DNA of 64,000 nt from Leptospirales bacterium (GTDB lineage: Bacteria > Spirochaetota > Leptospiria > Leptospirales > Leptonemataceae): assembly GCA_019694655.1 (NCBI GenBank), contig JAIBBN010000002.1:310001-374000 (forward strand), given 5' to 3'. How positions within the stretch are numbered: the stretch's first letter is position 1; each line of letters starts with the position of its first letter. The position numbers and the translations under genes are program-made. The notes under the pieces were generated by a model. The model saw only the letters and a list, made by a program, of their open reading frames with translations. It did no database searches and was not told the origin of the DNA. Below are positions 11,627 through 46,931 of the stretch, in pieces.

Positions 11627-12877
11627 TTAGAGCCCTTCGACGATCATTCCGGCAGCTTCCGTATTGTTGCTGCGTTCATCAATGAGAATGAAGGAACCGG
11701 TGCGACGGTTTTCGGCGTAGGCGTCGAAACACAATGGCTCGGAACAGCGGATTGTCACCGCGCCAAGATCATTCAGTCGCAATTCCTCAGAGCCTGGACC
11801 ATCGCGAAGCGCGTGCAGATCGACGGTGGAATCTATGGAGCGAACAACCGCTCGCACCCGGCGCGTAGTATGCTGCAGGAGAAAACGCGATCCAGGGACA
11901 AGGCGCTGTTCGCTCATCCAGCAGATGCGCGCCTGAAATTCCTGAGACACGACTGGCGGGCGAGCAGCTTCGGCTATCATCGCCCCGCGCCCGGCGTCAA
12001 TGTCGTCTGCCAGGCGCAATGCAATTGACTGAGGTGCGCGCGCTTCCGCCAGCTCGCTGCCAGAAAAATCAACCGACTCTACGGTGCTGGCAATTCCAGC
12101 CGGTAATACCACAACCGCATCGCCGGGGCGAAAGGCCCCGCCGGCAATGCGCCCGGCAAAGGCCCGATAGTCGCGGTATTCGGCGCTCTGTGGCCGAAGC
12201 ACATACTGCACTGGCAGGCGCGCCGCTTTCAGGCTCTCTTCATCTTGCAGTTCGACAGTCTCCAGGTGTTCCAGCAGCGCCGGTCCCTGATACCAGGGCA
12301 TTCGCGAGGAACGCGAGGCGATGTTTTCGCCGTCCACTGCAACAATGGGTATGGCCAGTACATCGGGAAGCCCCAGCGCTTCGCTGACTGCAGCAAATTG
12401 CTGCCGAATGGTCTGGAATTCGGACTCGCTGTAATCGACCAGATCCATCTTGTTCACACAAAGGACGAGGTGTCGGATGCCGAGCAACGCTGCGATGTAG
12501 GCGTGGCGCCGCGTTTGTTCGACGATTCCGCTGCGTGCATCGAGCAACAGCAGGGCGAGATGCGCAGTGGAGGCGCCGGTTACCATATTGCGCGTGTACT
12601 GTACATGACCTGGCGTATCGGCAATGATGAACTTGCGGCGCGGCGTTGAAAAATACTTATAAGCAACATCAATTGTGATGCCCTGTTCGCGCTCTGCGCG
12701 CAGCCCGTCGGTGAGCAGGGCAAGATTGACGCGCTCTTCGCCGGAGTGTTCTCGACTGCGCTCCAGCGCCTCAAGTTGGTCGGCCTGAATTGCCTGGGTG
12801 TCGTAGAGCAGGCGCCCGATCAGCGTGCTTTTTCCGTCGTCAACGCTGCCGCAGGTTAAGAATCGGAGCAATTCCAT
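11627..12877 (-). CDS. cysN: Sulfate adenylyltransferase, GTPase subunit
   Basis: GTP-hydrolysing subunit of ATP sulfurylase. With CysD it makes adenosine 5'-phosphosulfate (APS) from sulfate and ATP. The 416-residue protein has an EF-Tu-like G domain: P-loop GSVDDGKSTLIGRLL, switch II DTPGHVQYTRNMVTGAS and the guanine motif NKMD. Beta-barrel domains follow. It ends without an APS kinase domain, so it is a stand-alone CysN rather than a CysNC fusion. That fits the APS-reductase type of CysH next door. ATG 12877 lies 2 bases after the cysD stop. An in-frame TTG overlapping that stop is less likely. Confidence 0.95.
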   Translation of the reverse strand: MELLRFLTCGSVDDGKSTLIGRLLYDTQAIQADQLEALERSREHSGEERVNLALLTDGLRAEREQGITIDVAYKYFSTPRRKFIIADTPGHVQYTRNMVTGASTAHLALLLLDARSGIVEQTRRHAYIAALLGIRHLVLCVNKMDLVDYSESEFQTIRQQFAAVSEALGLPDVLAIPIVAVDGENIASRSSRMPWYQGPALLEHLETVELQDEESLKAARLPVQYVLRPQSAEYRDYRAFAGRIAGGAFRPGDAVVVLPAGIASTVESVDFSGSELAEARAPQSIALRLADDIDAGRGAMIAEAARPPVVSQEFQARICWMSEQRLVPGSRFLLQHTTRRVRAVVRSIDSTVDLHALRDGPGSEELRLNDLGAVTIRCSEPLCFDAYAENRRTGSFILIDERSNNTEAAGMIVEGL

Positions 12878-12879
12878 AG

Positions 12880-13782
12880 TCAAAAATACCCGCTGCGTTT
12901 GCGATCTTCCATCGCTGTTTCTGATCGGCGGTCATCGAGCCGGGCGCCGCGTTCGGTGATGCCCGAAGACAGGTTTTCGCGAATGATATCGTCCAGATCT
13001 TGAGCGTTGGACTCCACCGCCGCCGTGCAGGTCATGTCGCCGACCGTACGAAAGCGAACGCTTCGCTCCTCAACCTCATCGCCTGGATCAATCCGCACAA
13101 ATTCGCTGATCGGAAAGAGCTGGCCGTCGCGTCGAATTACCTGTCGCTTATGCGTGAAGTAGAGCGACGGTACGGCAATCCCCTCGCGCTGGATGTACAT
13201 CCAGACATCGAGCTCCGTCCAGTTGGATAGCGGAAATACGCGCACATTCTCGCCGGGATGCACCCGTCCGTTGTAGTTACTCCACAACTCAGGGCGTTGC
13301 AATTTTGGATCCCATTCGCCAAACTCGTTGCGTACCGAAAAAACGCGCTCCTTGGCGCGCGCCTTTTCCTCGTCGCGGCGACCGCCGCCCAGGCAGCAGT
13401 CCAGTCGCAGCTCTTCGATGGCCTCCAGCAGCGTAACGGCCTGGATGGCATTGCGACTGGGAAACTTGCCGGCTTCTTCTCGCGCTGTACCGCGATCGAT
13501 CGAGGCCTGCACCAGCCGAACCAGCAGACGGGCGCCCGACTCTCTGACCAGCGCGTCGCGAAATTCAAGGGCCTCGGGGAAGTTGTGGCCGGTATCGATG
13601 TGCAGCAGCGGGAAGGGAAAGGCCGCCGGAAAGAAGGCCTTCCGGGCAAGGTGGACCATGCAAATGGAGTCCTTACCACCCGAAAAAAGCAAGGCCGGTC
13701 GCTCAAACTGGGCCGCCGCCTCGCGCAAGATATGAATGGATTCAGCCTCAAGTAAATCCAGAGAACTCAGGCTACGGCCCAT
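12880..13782 (-). CDS. cysD: Sulfate adenylyltransferase, small subunit
   Basis: Catalytic ATP sulfurylase subunit, transferring AMP from ATP to sulfate. The 300-residue protein aligns by eye with enterobacterial CysD: LEAESIHILREAAAQF, the PP-loop LLFSGGKDSICMVHLARKAF, HIDTGHNFPEALEFRD, the RDE region GGGRRDEEKARAKERVFS, and LSNWTELDVWMYI. The ATG at 13782 is preceded by GGGGA at a good distance and gives the usual length. A GTG at 13809 would add nine residues. It is the first gene of a cysD-cysN operon driven from the divergent sulfur promoter at 13783-13943. Confidence 0.95.
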   Translation of the reverse strand: MGRSLSSLDLLEAESIHILREAAAQFERPALLFSGGKDSICMVHLARKAFFPAAFPFPLLHIDTGHNFPEALEFRDALVRESGARLLVRLVQASIDRGTAREEAGKFPSRNAIQAVTLLEAIEELRLDCCLGGGRRDEEKARAKERVFSVRNEFGEWDPKLQRPELWSNYNGRVHPGENVRVFPLSNWTELDVWMYIQREGIAVPSLYFTHKRQVIRRDGQLFPISEFVRIDPGDEVEERSVRFRTVGDMTCTAAVESNAQDLDDIIRENLSSGITERGARLDDRRSETAMEDRKRSGYF

Positions 13783-13835
13783 TGCAAGGTCCCCGATCAG
13801 TTCAGCCACGGTCCGACCAGCGTTTGCATGCGGAT

Positions 13836-13841: not shown

Positions 13842-13860
13842 GTCAAACAATTCATACCAA

Positions 13861-13926
13861 ATTACCAGGAATACGCAATCGATCTCTTGACGGAGTCGCC
13901 ACCATTCCTGGTATGACACCAGGATA
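13861..13926. promoter_or_regulatory. Putative sulfur-regulon operator between cysD and cysH
   Basis: Three related elements lie in the divergent promoter region. ATTACCAGGAAT is at 13861-13872, its inverted partner ATTCCTGGTAT is at 13904-13914, and a third half-site ACCAGGATA is at 13918-13926. The first two are mirror images over 9 bases. The identical 12-mer recurs in front of the sulfite reductase gene at 42027-42038. Position over both promoters suggests a transcription factor site. The cognate protein is not encoded nearby. Confidence 0.6.
13887..13917 (+). promoter_or_regulatory. cysH: Possible cysH promoter
   Basis: TTGACG at 13887-13892 resembles a -35 element, and TATGAC at 13912-13917 resembles a -10, with a rather long 19-base spacer. 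The inverted operator copy ATTCCTGGTAT occupies the spacer and the -10, so a bound regulator would interfere with or remodel this promoter. The cysH ATG follows 26 bases later. Confidence 0.35.
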
Positions 13927-13943: not shown

Positions 13944-14660
13944 ATGCAAGGCAATGCCATCCACGACGTCGAGAGTTTGAACCAGCGCTTTCAAAAAGAG
14001 CCGCCACAGTCGCTGGTTGCCTGGGGCCTGGAGCAATTTGGTCGTCACATCTCCCTGGCCTGTAGCCTGGGAATGGAAGATGTCGCCCTGGTTCATATGC
14101 TCTGCAGCATTGACCGCACGGCGCGCATCTTCGTCCTCGATACGGGACGCCTTCATGAATCGACCTATGAGACAATGGAAGCTCTGCGCAGCAAGTACGC
14201 CATCGACTTTGAGCTTTACTTTCCAGAAGCGGCGGCCGTAGAGCAGCTGGTGCGCGAGAAAGGCGCCTATTCCTTTTACCAGTCGGTGGAAAATCGTAAG
14301 CAGTGCTGCCAGATTCGTAAGGTAGCGCCGCTGCAGCGAGCGCTACAGGGAGCGGAGGCCTGGTTCACAGGTCTGCGTCGGGAACAAAGTCAGGGCAGGG
14401 CTGAAACCTTGCTGGTGGAACGCGACGACGCTCATGGCGGAATTCTCAAACTCAACCCGCTTGCCTACTGGTCGCTGACGCAGCTCCAGCAATTCATAGA
14501 CGAGAATCGAATCCCGCTGCACCCCTTGCATCGTCGCGGATATCCAAGCATTGGCTGCGAACCGTGCACGCGGGCCGTAGAACCAGGCGAAGATCTTCGC
14601 GCCGGACGCTGGTGGTGGGAGTTGGACAACAAAGAATGCGGTTTACACACAAAAAGTTGA
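13944..14660 (+). CDS. cysH: Assimilatory adenylyl-sulfate (APS) reductase
   Basis: Reduces activated sulfate to sulfite with thioredoxin or glutathione electrons. The 238-residue protein shows the PP-loop-derived region SLACSLGMEDVALVHML, VLDTGRLHESTYETME, the substrate motif FTGLRREQSQGRAE and the C-terminal ECGLH redox cysteine. Two cysteine pairs, C121-C122 (KQCCQIRK) and C205-x2-C208 (GCEPCTRA), are the 4Fe-4S ligands that mark APS reductases. PAPS reductases lack them. The absence of an APS kinase domain in CysN agrees. It heads a cysH-cobA operon, and the cobA ATG at 14636 lies inside the cysH 3' end. Confidence 0.93.
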   Translation: MQGNAIHDVESLNQRFQKEPPQSLVAWGLEQFGRHISLACSLGMEDVALVHMLCSIDRTARIFVLDTGRLHESTYETMEALRSKYAIDFELYFPEAAAVEQLVREKGAYSFYQSVENRKQCCQIRKVAPLQRALQGAEAWFTGLRREQSQGRAETLLVERDDAHGGILKLNPLAYWSLTQLQQFIDENRIPLHPLHRRGYPSIGCEPCTRAVEPGEDLRAGRWWWELDNKECGLHTKS

Positions 14661-15472
14661 AAGCGCATCGGGAAACAAAAAGCTCCGGGCCGGCAGTAAG
14701 TCTGGTAGGCGCTGGCCCGGGGGACCCGGAATTGCTGACGCTTCGCGCGCTTCGCCGATTGCAGGAAGCTGATGTTGTGCTCTATGATCGACTGATTTGC
14801 ATCGATGTTCTGAAGCTGGCGCAACAGGCCACGCTGGTGCCGGTGGGGAAAAAGCCGGGCCGCGCCGGCGCCCTGCGGCAAGATCGGATCTGCCGACTGT
14901 TGATTCGCTATGCAAGCGCCGGTTTTCGCGTTGTCCGACTCAAAGGCGGCGATCCGTTTGTATTTGGGCGCGGAGGCGAGGAAGCGCTGGCGCTCAGCGC
15001 AGCCGGAATCGACTTTGAAGTGGTACCCGGCGTAAGCAGCTTTTACGCCGCACCGGCCGCCGCAGGCATTCCGATTACGCACCGCGGTCTGGCCGGAGGG
15101 TTTGCGGTCTTTACAGCTCAACAGGCCGAAGGCAATGCGGCGCCGCCGTGGCAGGCGGCCGTGCAGATGCCCACAGCGGTTTTCGTAATGGGCGCCACGG
15201 CGCTGTCGGAAATCACGCGGCAACTGATCCTGCACGGCAGATCCCCGGAAACGCCAGCGGCGCTGATATCACGGGCCACCTGGCCGGACCAAGAGGTGAT
15301 CTGCGGCAGTCTGGATACGATTGCAGCGCTGGCAGCAGAGGCGCAATCGCCGGCCTGCCTGATCGTTGGAGAGGTCGTTGCGCTGCGTGCGAAAATTCTC
15401 GGCCTCGAGGGCGAAAACGACATCGCAACGGATATCGCTCAAACCGGCGGCGGATACTTGTTGGGTGCGTAG
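14636..15472 (+). CDS. cobA: Uroporphyrinogen-III C-methyltransferase
   Basis: SUMT methylates uroporphyrinogen III at C2 and C7 with SAM to give precorrin-2, precursor of siroheme and B12. The roughly 278-residue protein has SLVGAGPGDPELLTLRALR, VLYDRLI, RLKGGDPFVFGRGGEEAL and VVPGVSSFYAAPAAAGIPIT, all diagnostic. It has no CysG-type oxidase/ferrochelatase domain, so those steps must be encoded elsewhere. It overlaps cysH by 25 bases. A TTG at 14657 is an alternative start. Siroheme is the cofactor of the reductase at 39689-41965, so this gene fits the sulfate pathway. The 3' end overlaps the convergent epimerase gene by 34 bases. Confidence 0.93.
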   Translation: MRFTHKKLKAHRETKSSGPAVSLVGAGPGDPELLTLRALRRLQEADVVLYDRLICIDVLKLAQQATLVPVGKKPGRAGALRQDRICRLLIRYASAGFRVVRLKGGDPFVFGRGGEEALALSAAGIDFEVVPGVSSFYAAPAAAGIPITHRGLAGGFAVFTAQQAEGNAAPPWQAAVQMPTAVFVMGATALSEITRQLILHGRSPETPAALISRATWPDQEVICGSLDTIAALAAEAQSPACLIVGEVVALRAKILGLEGENDIATDIAQTGGGYLLGA

Positions 15473-39098: not shown

Positions 39099-39677
39099 TC
39101 AGCGCAGGGCGCTCAGTACTGCGTCCAGCGCAACAGGCGCGCCACAAGCTACCGAAAGCGTCAGACGACTGCGCGAATCGGTGGAAGCAACTTTTGTCTC
39201 AACCGACGCTATGCCCAGTACTTTGAGGGCTCCCTCCAGTTCTTGCCGGAATACTGCCGCATGCTCGGCATTGTTGCGGGCCAGCAATCGATCGCCAGCG
39301 CAGACCAGCAATTGACCGGCGTCAAAGCTCAATCGTCCTGCAAATTCTGGCGCGGCGCTCAGCAATAGAGCGGCGCGAAATGCAAACCCAAGAGCGTGCA
39401 GCAGGCGAGCATGATTGTCGCCGTCGCGAATCTCGCGCACCTCAAATACGATTCCCAGGCGCTCTTCCGCGCCCTGCTCCAGACGGATATAGGCCTCGTG
39501 TCCAATCAGTTGTATGCCGGGACCGGCGGGCACATGGCTGTAGTCAGCTACGTCGAGCCACAGTCCAGGCAGCGCCTTTTCCTGAATCCAGCGGTGAAAT
39601 ACAGGAATGGCGTCAGCCACTTCCGGCGCGCTCGGAGCCAGGGAGTAAACCTTTACACTGAGGTGCTGCAGTTCCAT
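39099..39677 (-). CDS. Conserved-looking protein downstream of sulfite/nitrite reductase, function unknown
   Basis: A 192-residue protein. It begins MELQHLSVKVYSLAPSAPEV and contains a well-formed block VFHRWIQEKALPGLWLDVAD, then YSHVPAGPGIQLIGHEAYIR. These have the look of a conserved family, but I cannot name it. It has no signal peptide or membrane segment. Only 11 bases separate it from the stop of the reductase gene, and both share one strand and probably one transcript. A role with sulfite or siroheme chemistry is inferred from position alone. Confidence 0.68.
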   Translation of the reverse strand: MELQHLSVKVYSLAPSAPEVADAIPVFHRWIQEKALPGLWLDVADYSHVPAGPGIQLIGHEAYIRLEQGAEERLGIVFEVREIRDGDNHARLLHALGFAFRAALLLSAAPEFAGRLSFDAGQLLVCAGDRLLARNNAEHAAVFRQELEGALKVLGIASVETKVASTDSRSRLTLSVACGAPVALDAVLSALR

Positions 39678-39688
39678 GTTTCCTCGAC

Positions 39689-41965
39689 TCAGGTCGCCGC
39701 AGCAAGTCCCGATTGTGCAATTCGGTCGCCCTGCCGCAAATTGCAGGCGTGCGCCGCTTCAACAAATAGTCCCGCTTCTTCCACGCGGTGGTGGGCGCTG
39801 CGCTGATCCGCTGGCTCGTCTGCCCGTTCAAAGGCTGAGAACAAGAAGTGCGCAAATTTTCCGCCGGCAAAGGGATCAAAGAACAATTGCGTATCGTAGA
39901 GGCGTTTGCGAAATTCTTCGATGATCACCGCCGGAGTCTCGGGAACATCCAGATAGCTGAGCCGCACAAGGCCCCGCGCCGCCTGCAGCATGGCGCGCAA
40001 AGCGCGTTTAGCCGCCGCGTCATTGTTGCCGCTATCCAGCAGCAGTTGCGCTTCAAAGACCTCGCGCTCCGCAGCCGCCAGATCGAAATCAATCCTTGTA
40101 ACGACCTCGCCAGCGCATTCGCCCACGCCCATATCGCCGGTGCTGTACTCGCGCGGATCGCGCCAATCGGAATAGAGGCTGCGATCGGAAGCATGCTCCG
40201 GCACTGCCGTCAAATCATCCAGCATCTGCTTGATGGAGACCTTGCCAATGCGCTTGATGAAAAGCTGAAATGTTTCGCCTGCCTGACGCTCTTTGCGGAA
40301 GCGATCGGCAATCCTTTCAATCACCTGCGGAATGCGGCGCGAGGGGACAGCCAGAATGGGCAGACCATAAGCGCCGCCGTTTTCGCTCCACTGACCGCCC
40401 AGCACCACCTGGAAATGGGGAACAGTATGCGCCCCAACCTTGCGGGCCACGCCATAGAAGCCGAGATCCGCCAGGTGGTGCTGACTGCAGGAATTGAAGC
40501 AGCCGCTAATCTTAATCTTCAATCGTTCAATGGTCTCATCGATAGCCATATCTCCTGAAGAAAAGCGGCGCATCAGTTCGCCCGCCAATCCGCGCGAGGC
40601 GGATATGCCCAGCTTGCAGGTGTCGGTGCCAGGGCAGGCAACCACATCGCGAATCCCCTCGGCCCCTGCGCCGGCCAACTTCGCCGCCTGTAGCTCGGCA
40701 AATAGCGCTGGCAGATCGGAATTGCTGATCCAGCGCAGGACCATATTTTGCTCCACTGTCGTTCGGATTGCGCCGGGCGTATAGCGGCGCGCGATGTCAG
40801 CTAGAGCGCGCAATTGCGCAGCGGTAATATCGCCCAGGGGAAGCTTAACGGTAACGGTAGAGTAGCCCTCTTGCTTCTGCGCATAGACATTGGATTTTTG
40901 CCAGGGCAGCATTTCGGGATTGGTTGTGCTGGCAAGCGCCGAGCCAGGCTTCGAAGGTTTCTCCTCCGTCGCCTCTGGCAGGTCCGTCAAATAGGCTGTC
41001 CATCGCGGATCCGACGGCAGAACCTTGCGCTCCTCCTGCACCAGGCGGCGGAATTCCTCGTCGCCCAGCTTTGCAACCAGGAACTTGACTCGCGCTCTGG
41101 CGCGGTTTTTCTTTTCGCCCAGTCGAGCAAACACGCGGCTAACAGCCTGAGCCATCGGCAGCAGTTCTTCTACAGGCAAGAAATCGTACAGGACGCGCGC
41201 CGAATGCGGTACGGCGCCAAGGCCGCCGCCAACGAAAACCTGAAAGCCGCGTTGCGTCAGACCATCAACGACGCGAGTTCTGGCGACCATTCCCAGGTCG
41301 TGCATATTTGCCAGGCCACAACCATTGTGTGCGCAGCCGCTGAAAGATATCTTAAATTTACGACCGAAGTCCTGCACATCCTGGTGACCGAGCAAAAAAA
41401 ATGTCAGGGCGCGGGCGTACGGCGATATATCGAAGGCTTCTTCGCGACAGACTCCGGCGATGGCGCATCCGGTGACGTTGCGCACGGAATTGCCGCAAGC
41501 CTCGCGCGTTGTGATTCCAACCGCCGCCAGCCGCCGCATCAAAGCCGGAGCATCTTCAATCAGCACAAAGTGCAGCTGGAAATCCTGGCGTGTGGTAACA
41601 TGGGCGATGCCATCGGAATAGTCTTCGGCCAGCTCGGCCATTGTTTCCAGCTGTTGGGGAGTCAATCCGCCGTAGGGAACTTTGATGCGCATCATGCCCG
41701 GCGCATACCACTGGGTCATCGGCCCTTTGGTTGGCGCCTCTGGAAATGCCAGGTTTTGCTGAGCGATGCCATCGTGTCGCAGGCCGTTGTCATAGCGCTG
41801 GCCGTAGGCGCCGCGTCGCAGACGCGTCTCAGCAAAGAGCTTCTCGTCGAACTTGCCCTGCTTGCGCAAACGAAGCTCAGTCTCAAAGATATCGATCTCT
41901 CTGGCCCAATCCTCGCGGATCATTGGGCCCAATTCCTGGGACCACGCGTCATTCGATGCTTTCAT
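39689..41965 (-). CDS. Siroheme-dependent sulfite/nitrite reductase with a C-terminal helical extension
   Basis: Reduces sulfite to sulfide (or nitrite to ammonia) with siroheme and a 4Fe-4S cluster. The 758-residue protein has two repeats of the ferredoxin-like/siroheme domain. Cluster ligands are CPGTDTC and CFNSC (C-x5-C and C-x3-C), with RQDFQLHF in the substrate site. After about residue 600, some 150 residues are added that read as a HEPN-like helical domain (AAAKRALRAMLQAARGLVR, AFERADEPADQRSAHHRVEE). ATG 41965 gives MKASNDAWSQELGPMIREDW. Sulfite is the likely substrate because the shared operator links it to cysDNH. The sir/nir choice is not settled by sequence. Confidence 0.88.
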   Translation of the reverse strand: MKASNDAWSQELGPMIREDWAREIDIFETELRLRKQGKFDEKLFAETRLRRGAYGQRYDNGLRHDGIAQQNLAFPEAPTKGPMTQWYAPGMMRIKVPYGGLTPQQLETMAELAEDYSDGIAHVTTRQDFQLHFVLIEDAPALMRRLAAVGITTREACGNSVRNVTGCAIAGVCREEAFDISPYARALTFFLLGHQDVQDFGRKFKISFSGCAHNGCGLANMHDLGMVARTRVVDGLTQRGFQVFVGGGLGAVPHSARVLYDFLPVEELLPMAQAVSRVFARLGEKKNRARARVKFLVAKLGDEEFRRLVQEERKVLPSDPRWTAYLTDLPEATEEKPSKPGSALASTTNPEMLPWQKSNVYAQKQEGYSTVTVKLPLGDITAAQLRALADIARRYTPGAIRTTVEQNMVLRWISNSDLPALFAELQAAKLAGAGAEGIRDVVACPGTDTCKLGISASRGLAGELMRRFSSGDMAIDETIERLKIKISGCFNSCSQHHLADLGFYGVARKVGAHTVPHFQVVLGGQWSENGGAYGLPILAVPSRRIPQVIERIADRFRKERQAGETFQLFIKRIGKVSIKQMLDDLTAVPEHASDRSLYSDWRDPREYSTGDMGVGECAGEVVTRIDFDLAAAEREVFEAQLLLDSGNNDAAAKRALRAMLQAARGLVRLSYLDVPETPAVIIEEFRKRLYDTQLFFDPFAGGKFAHFLFSAFERADEPADQRSAHHRVEEAGLFVEAAHACNLRQGDRIAQSGLAAAT

Positions 41966-42014: not shown

Positions 42015-42038
42015 ATTTCCTGGAAGATTACCAGGAAT
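42015..42038. promoter_or_regulatory. Putative sulfur-regulon operator upstream of the reductase
   Basis: A perfect inverted repeat TTCCTGG-(7 bases)-CCAGGAA at 42017-42037. Its right half with flank, ATTACCAGGAAT (42027-42038), is identical over 12 bases to the site between cysD and cysH. It sits 50-75 bases before the reductase ATG and also upstream of the divergent TPR gene at 42152. Either gene or both could be regulated. Confidence 0.6.
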
Positions 42039-44577: not shown

Positions 44578-45180
44578 TCAAGCTTCGGCCGGATTGCCGC
44601 TGGCACATTGTAGCCAGATTTCACGAACCGCGGCGGGCATGGGCCATGCAAGAGCGCGTTCGCGACCGGCCAGGGACATCTTGGCGGCCGTCTTCCTTAA
44701 AATGTCCGCGGTTTTTACCGGATCATGTTGCGCGGCAAACTCCAGCGCATAATGACTCAAGAAAACCAGACAGATAACATCCTCCAGCAGCTGCACCTCG
44801 CTGTCCTGGCGCAGATTCCTTTTTTGGACCAGCGCCTCGACTCTTAGTATCAGCTCTTCCGCAAATTGCAGCGCTGTCAGAATCTCCCGCAGTTCGGCAG
44901 CGTGAAATCGCTGTAGATCAGTTCGCCAGCGATGGTAACCGGCGCGGTCACGCGGATAGGTATCGCGCGGAATTTTCCACCTTCGAATGTGCTGACCGCG
45001 TGCGGCGATGCACAGGGCGAGGTTGGCAGCCGGTTCGATGGCAAGCAACGTGGTCGTCATCCTTCGCCCGTAGAGCAGCGCCTTTGCGCTCCCATCCTCT
45101 CCATCTCGCTGTGGATCCTCGCTGTTGGCGCGATCAATTGCAGCGTGGACCGCCTTTAGCATTTCTTCGCGATCTTGCAT
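44578..45180 (-). CDS. DUF4202 family protein
   Basis: A 200-residue soluble protein that matches my memory of DUF4202: an ARGQHIRRWKIPRDTYPRDR core followed by GYHRWRTDL, with LQLLEDVICLVFLSHY-type QLLEDVICLVFLSHYALEF in the second half. Conserved His, Glu and Asp residues suggest a metal site of HD-like type, but that is inference, and no activity is known to me. ATG 45180 (MQDREEMLKAV) is used, and a longer start at 45228 would overlap the divergent aminoacylase gene. It converges with the TPR gene, leaving 11 bases between. Confidence 0.75.
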   Translation of the reverse strand: MQDREEMLKAVHAAIDRANSEDPQRDGEDGSAKALLYGRRMTTTLLAIEPAANLALCIAARGQHIRRWKIPRDTYPRDRAGYHRWRTDLQRFHAAELREILTALQFAEELILRVEALVQKRNLRQDSEVQLLEDVICLVFLSHYALEFAAQHDPVKTADILRKTAAKMSLAGRERALAWPMPAAVREIWLQCASGNPAEA

Positions 45181-45203
45181 TGCACCCAGCGAAAGTCCCC
45201 GCC

Positions 45204-46931
45204 ATGCCCGGGACAATCTTTTCTGCAATCTGCTGGGCGGCTCCTATTGCCAGTCGCAAGCTGTCCGCAGTGGGCGGATCCTTGATTACTCGAAGGCAGG
45301 CCTTAGCGGCCGGCGCCGGGCTGCTGGGCGCCGCCGCAGGAGTTGTGGCACAGGGCAGCGACCAGGCGGATTGGTTGCTACAAGGCGGCCAGCTCTTCGA
45401 TGGCAGCGGCGCAGCGCCTCAACAGGCGGACCTTGCCATCAAAGATGGACATATCCTCGCCATCGGCGGCCTTGAGGGAATGGCGGCGAAGCGTCGCCTC
45501 AATCTGCGCGGTCTGGCCGTAGCGCCGGGCTTCATTGATTTGCACAGCCACAGTGATCTTGCGCTCCTGCAGGGCGGACGCGCGCTTTCCAAGCTCTACC
45601 AGGGCGTCACCACAGAAGTGATCGGGCAGGATGGCCGTAGCCTTGCACCGCTCAGTTCTGAACAGGCTTCAGCAAGCAACCGACGTCTGGAGGCCATGGG
45701 AATTGCCGGCGCGAATTGGCTCGATTTCGCGGGGATGGTGCAGCGCTACGACGCAGCGCCGCTCTATGCCAATGTAGTCTTCCTGGCGGGCGCCGGTCAG
45801 TTGCGCCGCCAGATCCTGGGCGATCAGTTTCGTCCGGCCGCGCCGCTGGAGCTGGCGCGCATGACTGCCGCCGGACGCGCTGCGCGTCAGGCGGGCGTCG
45901 CCGGGCTCAGCAGCGGACTGGAATATCCGCCGGGCGCTTATGCAACCAGGCGCGAGCTTATCGCTCTGGCCCGCCAGATGGGGTTATACGTTACACATAT
46001 GCGCAACGAAGATGACCGGGTGCTGGAAGCGCTGGACGAGGCATTATCCATCGCCCAGAATTCTGGCGCGCGATTGCACGTCAGTCATCTCAAGGCGCAA
46101 GGGCGGCGCAACTGGCCAAAGCAAGCGGAGATGCTGCGTCGCCTGGCGGTCGACCGCAACGCCGGCGCATGGCGCAGCTTTGACGCCTATCCATACAATG
46201 CCTACAGCGTTAGCCTGATCTCATTGCTGCCAGTCTGGGCCCGACTGGATCCGGCGCAGCCACTGGGCGAGCGTTTGCACAATGCAAGCTTGCGCGAGCG
46301 GATGGCTGCCGGCTTTGAGCGAAAGATTCAGTCGCTTGATTCCTACGATGCGGTCCTGCTGTCCGATCTGCCTCATCCCGACTACCGGCGCTATGAAGGC
46401 GCCCGGCTGGGACAGCTGGCCGCCGCATTGGATAAGAGCCCCTTTGATCTGGTAGTAGAAATCCTCGATGCTCTTGGTCCGCGCGCCGCAATGATTGGCT
46501 TTGCAATGAGCGAGCAAAATGTAGCGGCGCTGATGTCCGAAGCCTGGTGCGCCATTGCCTCCGATGGCGCCGCCCTGCCCTTTGAGGGCGAGGGTCGTCC
46601 TCATCCGCGCAATTTCAGCGCCTTTCCACGCGCCATTCGCTTTGCGCGGGATGAGGGCGCAGCCAGCATGCAGGAAATGATCCGACGCATGACTTCGCTT
46701 CCAGCCGCCATTGTCGGCCTGCAGGGACGCGGACTGCTGTCGACCGGCTTTGCCGCCGATATCGTCGCCTTCGATCCGCTGCACTTTCGTGATCGCGGGG
46801 ATTACCTGCATCCCCGGCAGAAGCCCGAAGGACTGGCGCATGTATTCGTGAATGGCGCGCCGATGATCCTCAACGGCAATCTGGTCGCGGAGGGGCGCGG
46901 CCGGCCGCTGCGCGGAGCACAGTGGCAATGA
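45204..46931 (+). CDS. D-aminoacylase / N-acyl-D-amino-acid deacylase family amidohydrolase, probably Tat-exported
   Basis: A 575-residue amidohydrolase. Metal-binding motifs GFIDLHSHSDLALL, SSGLEYPPGAYATRRELI and ARLHVSHLKAQGRRNW are those of D-aminoacylases and dihydroorotase-like N-acyl amidases. The C-terminal PFEGEGRPHPRNFSAFPRAI block and ADIVAFDP also fit. Near residues 30-50 TRRQALAAGAGLLGAAAGVVAQG (in part) is a twin-arginine signal, so the enzyme is likely periplasmic. A GTG at 45270 would place this signal at the very N-terminus and is a good alternative start. Its stop overlaps the acyltransferase start (ATGA), suggesting coupled function. Confidence 0.82.
   Translation: MPGTIFSAICWAAPIASRKLSAVGGSLITRRQALAAGAGLLGAAAGVVAQGSDQADWLLQGGQLFDGSGAAPQQADLAIKDGHILAIGGLEGMAAKRRLNLRGLAVAPGFIDLHSHSDLALLQGGRALSKLYQGVTTEVIGQDGRSLAPLSSEQASASNRRLEAMGIAGANWLDFAGMVQRYDAAPLYANVVFLAGAGQLRRQILGDQFRPAAPLELARMTAAGRAARQAGVAGLSSGLEYPPGAYATRRELIALARQMGLYVTHMRNEDDRVLEALDEALSIAQNSGARLHVSHLKAQGRRNWPKQAEMLRRLAVDRNAGAWRSFDAYPYNAYSVSLISLLPVWARLDPAQPLGERLHNASLRERMAAGFERKIQSLDSYDAVLLSDLPHPDYRRYEGARLGQLAAALDKSPFDLVVEILDALGPRAAMIGFAMSEQNVAALMSEAWCAIASDGAALPFEGEGRPHPRNFSAFPRAIRFARDEGAASMQEMIRRMTSLPAAIVGLQGRGLLSTGFAADIVAFDPLHFRDRGDYLHPRQKPEGLAHVFVNGAPMILNGNLVAEGRGRPLRGAQWQ

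Follow-up and report, generated by a model that had tools for sequence, protein, structure and literature searches.

The window analysed here is a stretch of 64,000 nucleotides (G000:C2:310001-374000) from a draft genome of 3.92 Mb, G000, and it contains a divergent cysD/cysH region as well as a gene for a sulfite reductase hemoprotein, whose product is 61-69% identical in seven relatives (Table 1). The real start of the cobA/cysG-type reading frame downstream of cysH probably lies further in than position 14564. Near the sulfite reductase gene is a DUF4202 gene (44578-45228), and in the relative G011 a similar gene (L123 5170-5808) stands directly upstream. An uncharacterised protein that has no Pfam match is encoded after the sulfite reductase gene both in the window (39099-39677) and in G011 (L123 8522-9103), the two proteins starting with MELQHLSVKVYS and VELQHVNVKIYS.

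Table 1. Genes, promoter elements and predicted operators in the window (window positions).
Feature	Position	Strand	Remarks
cysN, sulfate adenylyltransferase subunit 1 (GTPase)	11627..12883	-	overlaps cysD end; ORF and translation, assigned by inspection
cysD, sulfate adenylyltransferase subunit 2	12880..13809	-	NCBIfam CysD TIGR02039 above cut-off
Operator 1 (predicted)	13851..13871	-	TTCCTGGTAATTTGGTATGAA on minus strand, TTCATACCAAATTACCAGGAA as window letters; cysD-cysN promoter
-35 hexamer TTGACG	13887..13892	+	inferred cysH promoter; matches layout of relatives' cysK promoters
Operator 2 (predicted)	13905..13925	+	TTCCTGGTATGACACCAGGAT; cysH promoter
-10 element TATGAC (inferred)	13912..13917	+	within operator 2; 19-bp spacing from -35; by analogy with relatives' cysK promoters
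cysH, adenylyl/phosphoadenylyl-sulfate reductase	13944..14660	+	NCBIfam TIGR02055 and PRK02090 above cut-off
cobA/cysG-type uroporphyrinogen-III C-methyltransferase (siroheme)	14564..15472	+	downstream of cysH; NCBIfam TIGR01469 above cut-off
Sulfite reductase hemoprotein (NIR_SIR / NirA-like; called cysI)	39689..41962	-	Pfam PF01077 and PF03460
Operator 3 (predicted)	42017..42037	-	perfect palindrome TTCCTGG-N7-CCAGGAA; sulfite reductase gene

A preliminary description of this DNA had singled out a 12-base word with a mirror copy in the cysD/cysH promoter region and the same word before the sulfite reductase gene, and had proposed from them a sulfur regulon. The words are present as described: ATTACCAGGAAT at 13861-13872 with its partner ATTCCTGGTAT at 13904-13914, and an identical 12-mer at 42027-42038 within the perfect TTCCTGG-N7-CCAGGAA. 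The 12-mer and its mirror copy do not form a unit, however, as the "mirror copies" are halves of two 21-bp palindromes. It is the 21-bp palindrome TTCMTRK-N7-MYAKGAA that is the real unit, with three copies in the window, and the divergent cysD/cysH region contains two separate palindromes, one per promoter. Scored with a matrix trained on cysK promoters of relatives, operator 1 is the best site of the window (about 30.4-30.8 bits) and differs by one base from the box preceding cysK in the relative G012. Operator 3 ranks second (about 21.3-21.5 bits); it lies some 50 bp before the ATG of the sulfite reductase gene and is the sole zero-mismatch copy of the palindrome genome-wide. Operator 2, which sits 12 bp behind the TTGACG hexamer and has one mismatch against the perfect palindrome, ranks third at 10.1 bits; because such a score is expected about 1.3 times per 64 kb, the site is weak and not significant by score alone, and the case for it is made by its location and symmetry.

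The sharing of the 12-mer had been judged hard to explain by chance, and as a count of words this judgement is weak: allowing two mismatches, we saw 4 near-copies where 2.3 are expected, which is chance level. In the rest of the genome the palindrome is matched mostly within coding DNA, so that genome-wide counts of the 12-mer or of the strict TTCCTGG palindrome are uninformative, and a strict TTCCTA-N9-TAGGAA pattern had no match in G000 at one mismatch. Near-copies at chance level and matches mostly within genes are compatible with a coincidence of words or a coding-sequence bias (CTGGAA/TTCCAG codons), but the motif scores lie far beyond chance. A weight matrix built from 14 cysK sites of relatives, with the G000 sites left out, placed operators 1, 3 and 2 as ranks 1-3 in the 64 kb. 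None of 1000 matrices obtained by symmetric column permutation put its top three sites in the two cys promoters, and the maximum over 200 random 64-kb sequences was 20.0 bits, below both best window sites. The first training sites had been chosen with a pattern partly derived from the window palindrome, a dependence that is removed by a de novo expectation-maximisation run on 160-bp cysK promoters; this run yielded TTCCTACAAAnTTTGTAGGAA, still palindromic without imposed symmetry, with the window sites at ranks 1, 2 and 4. Finally, a sequence profile built from 21 relatives' sites, none from G000, had a single match at E<=10 in the 3.92 Mb of G000, at window 13849-13872 (E 0.038) in the cysD/cysH promoter, which excludes a random genome-wide frequency. 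The matrix ranking, the permutation and random-sequence controls and this single match, together with conservation before orthologous genes, refute chance coincidence, to which we assign a negligible probability.

The box is conserved in relatives, other genera included, where it occupies promoters and is associated with sulfur genes. A pattern search found boxes immediately before cysK in two genera, and most cysK promoters of the family have one, usually behind a TTGAC -35; the cysH and sir/cysI promoters of the same family have comparable boxes that keep the 21-bp register, and the box also precedes cysD. A profile scan of 22 family genomes, in which the best <=150 candidates per genome were scored, placed boxes before cysK, sir, cysH, metY, a metB-like gene, sbp and DUF2061 genes. 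Many of these matches were outside the training set, including those before sir in G016, G019, G002 and G020 and before cysH in G016, G019 and G010, as well as others before metY, sbp, the metB-like gene and DUF2061. The box precedes metY in G016 and G001, DUF2061 in G001, G013, G016, G019 and G021, and, in G006, the sulfate permease gene sbp together with a related porin-like gene.

Occurrence before cysH, cysD, sir/cysI, cysK, metY, a metB-like gene and sbp in other genera supports the proposal of a sulfur regulon. The preliminary description had advised a search before cysK, metB and sulfate-permease genes; boxes stand before such genes in relatives, but in G000 the sulfate-reduction core alone has a detectable box, the two cysK-like genes and the sulfate permease operon having none. 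A few profile matches, some of them coding, have no evident sulfur link. Outside the family, none of 12 inspected matches, from the best <=150 candidates per genome, lay before a sulfur gene, which is weak evidence of absence. That the operator is real and marks a family-wide sulfur-assimilation regulon is highly probable. Among further perfect boxes, one (L156 4985-5005; G008:C33:6484) lies 53 bp before a gene for a 2-oxoacid:ferredoxin oxidoreductase, and another (L157 4923; G012:C80:14922) has no clear target.

In most of the relatives' promoters the box begins 6-11 bp behind the -35 hexamer (12 bp for cysH of G000) and spans the -10; in G004, G012 and G011 its end is 2-9 bp from the start of the ATG (2 bp in G012 and G004). 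A clear -35 was looked for before cysD and cysI of G000 and was not found. As it sits between the -35 and the transcription start and ends near the ATG in these relatives, the box is largely outside the transcript; and because it covers the -10, overlapping the core promoter as a repressor's operator would, we read it as a repressor operator acting as DNA and think it very likely that it works in this mode. The inverted repeats could otherwise be RNA hairpins in the mRNA leader, serving as an attenuator or in translational control, and read as sequence, operators 2 and 3 could each pair into a stem of 7 bp closing a loop of 7 nt, within 75 bp of a start codon. A leader hairpin would need to be transcribed in full, however, whereas much of the box is untranscribed in relatives, and the cysD site, being only partly palindromic, would make a poor stem. 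Given the position of the box, we disfavour the RNA hairpin as highly improbable.

In agreement with the preliminary description, we saw no gene for a regulator next to the sites, and among the regulator classes that it had put forward Rrf2 is the best supported. Outside the window, at G000:C1:91476-91892, lies a gene for an Rrf2 protein whose best match among solved structures is Staphylococcus aureus CymR (E 8.5e-20). It scores 103.9 bits against TIGR00738 rrf2_super (cut-off 73.3), which places it in the Rrf2 family, and 97.4 bits against the CymR equivalog NF047409 (cut-off 195); because it falls short of the latter cut-off, we call it CymR-like and not CymR. Twelve orthologues share no conserved cysteine column that could supply Fe-S ligands. 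An orthologue was found in 19 of the 22 family genomes, the others being 50-72% identical to that of G000, and nearly every box-bearing genome has one. The near-complete genome G005 has none, its best relative being 28% identical, and no box is present in the promoters of its cysH, cysI and cysK. In G010 no Rrf2 gene other than the CymR-like one was found, and a box precedes the DUF2061-cysH operon. Two genomes are exceptions: G019, at 78% assembly completeness, has many boxes and no CymR-like gene was found in it, and G007 has the gene and a cysK without a box. The CymR-like gene adjoins no box, and its own promoter has none, so that autoregulation was not seen. We consider this protein the probable regulator of the 21-bp box.

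The same operator and regulon might instead be read by another protein, either a second Rrf2 (G000:C3:97177) or one of the LysR or TetR type. The second Rrf2 gene adjoins sbp-porin-cysTWA and in G003 and G015 lies about 9-11 kb from cysH, and since our regulator survey covered the Rrf2 family, LysR- and TetR-type readers remain candidates. Yet this second Rrf2 has a box of its own around the permease operon, the different 23-bp sequence ATAACGACTAnnTTAGTCGTATA, which speaks against the permease-linked protein, and the CymR-like Rrf2 alone is common to nearly all box-bearing genomes. A different reader therefore seems unlikely to us. The second Rrf2 gene and its box are at L115 6178-6642 and 6686 (G000:C3 about 97177), L119 5432 and 5506, and L120 5998 and 6073. 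The protein has three cysteines (CVSVAAYRRCSQESVC), possibly Fe-S ligands, and in these genomes a different Rrf2 operator seems to govern the sulfate permease, which in G006 is under the TTCCTA box.

With the CymR-like Rrf2 as the favoured reader, we propose that a dimeric repressor, most probably this protein, would bind the 21-bp box where it overlaps the -10. With cysteine or reduced sulfur in ample supply, the bound repressor would block RNA polymerase; under sulfur limitation it would depart, and cysDN, cysH-cobA and the sulfite reductase gene would be transcribed together. By analogy with CymR-CysK, the effector may be cysteine or O-acetylserine. We put the probability of this explanation as a whole, comprising family-wide operators, a CymR-like Rrf2 repressor and sulfur-responsive release, at roughly 0.7.

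In enterobacteria, the LysR-type regulator CysB activates cysDN, cysH, the sulfite reductase genes and cysK. The physiological targets are alike, but the box described here overlies the -10, a position that would suit a repressor. In Bacillus and Staphylococcus, CymR is an Rrf2 repressor without an Fe-S cluster, and cysK is among the sulfur genes under its control (PMC3828012, PMC9338935). The proposed regulon would operate much as that of CymR does in Firmicutes. The candidate resembles it in having no conserved cysteines and in that the box precedes cysK in most relatives, though not in G000; it differs in phylum, in reaching half the NCBIfam cut-off and in a regulon centred on sulfate reduction. 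The Fe-S proteins IscR, NsrR and RirA belong to the same family, and the 23-bp NsrR site with its central 7-bp region (PMC9338935) resembles the N7 spacer in geometry, but the CymR-like protein has no conserved cysteine in the 12 relatives, and the targets are sulfur-assimilation genes. SifR/HypR, also of the Rrf2 family, has a near-palindromic 19-bp operator, TGTAA-N9-TTACA (PMC9218516), similar in length but with the half-site TGTAA against TTCCTA and with different targets.

Searches of the open-access literature brought up neither this operator nor an account of sulfur regulation, sulfate-assimilation control included, in Leptonema-like spirochaetes. We find it fairly likely that these spirochaetes have a previously undescribed regulon with a distinct Rrf2 subfamily, an operator of its own of 21 bp, and a member, DUF2061, that probably takes part in sulfate assimilation. 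For these organisms the operator provides a map of the regulon and a leading candidate for its regulator, and it suggests a use of Rrf2 repressors in cysteine control well past the Firmicutes.

In a sister family, f4 (G034 and G040; L425 and L426), a more distant Rrf2 gene heads a long sulfate-assimilation operon comprising, by names assigned on inspection, genes for DUF2061, cysK, metY/metB-like, ThiF-like and JAMM-type proteins, sir, cysH, cysD and cysN. The operon has its own conserved promoter element, ATAACCTGATAAGGAA-GTAAGGTAT, and its DUF2061 gene (L426 10978-11232) lies between rrf2 and cysK. An Rrf2 gene at the head of such an operon adds to the case for an Rrf2 repressor of the CymR type as the best candidate for reading the 21-bp box. 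DUF2061 (PF09834) membrane proteins have the sulfur box in one genus (L358, L359, L356, L350 and L354), and in other genomes their gene precedes cysH (L348 and L346). Two independent lines, the operator in one family and the operon in another, thus tie DUF2061 to sulfate reduction, and it is likely an unrecognised sulfate-assimilation protein. A box also stands before a DUF4395 gene (PF14340) at L351 2602 (G019:C321:6601), possibly a further member of the regulon.
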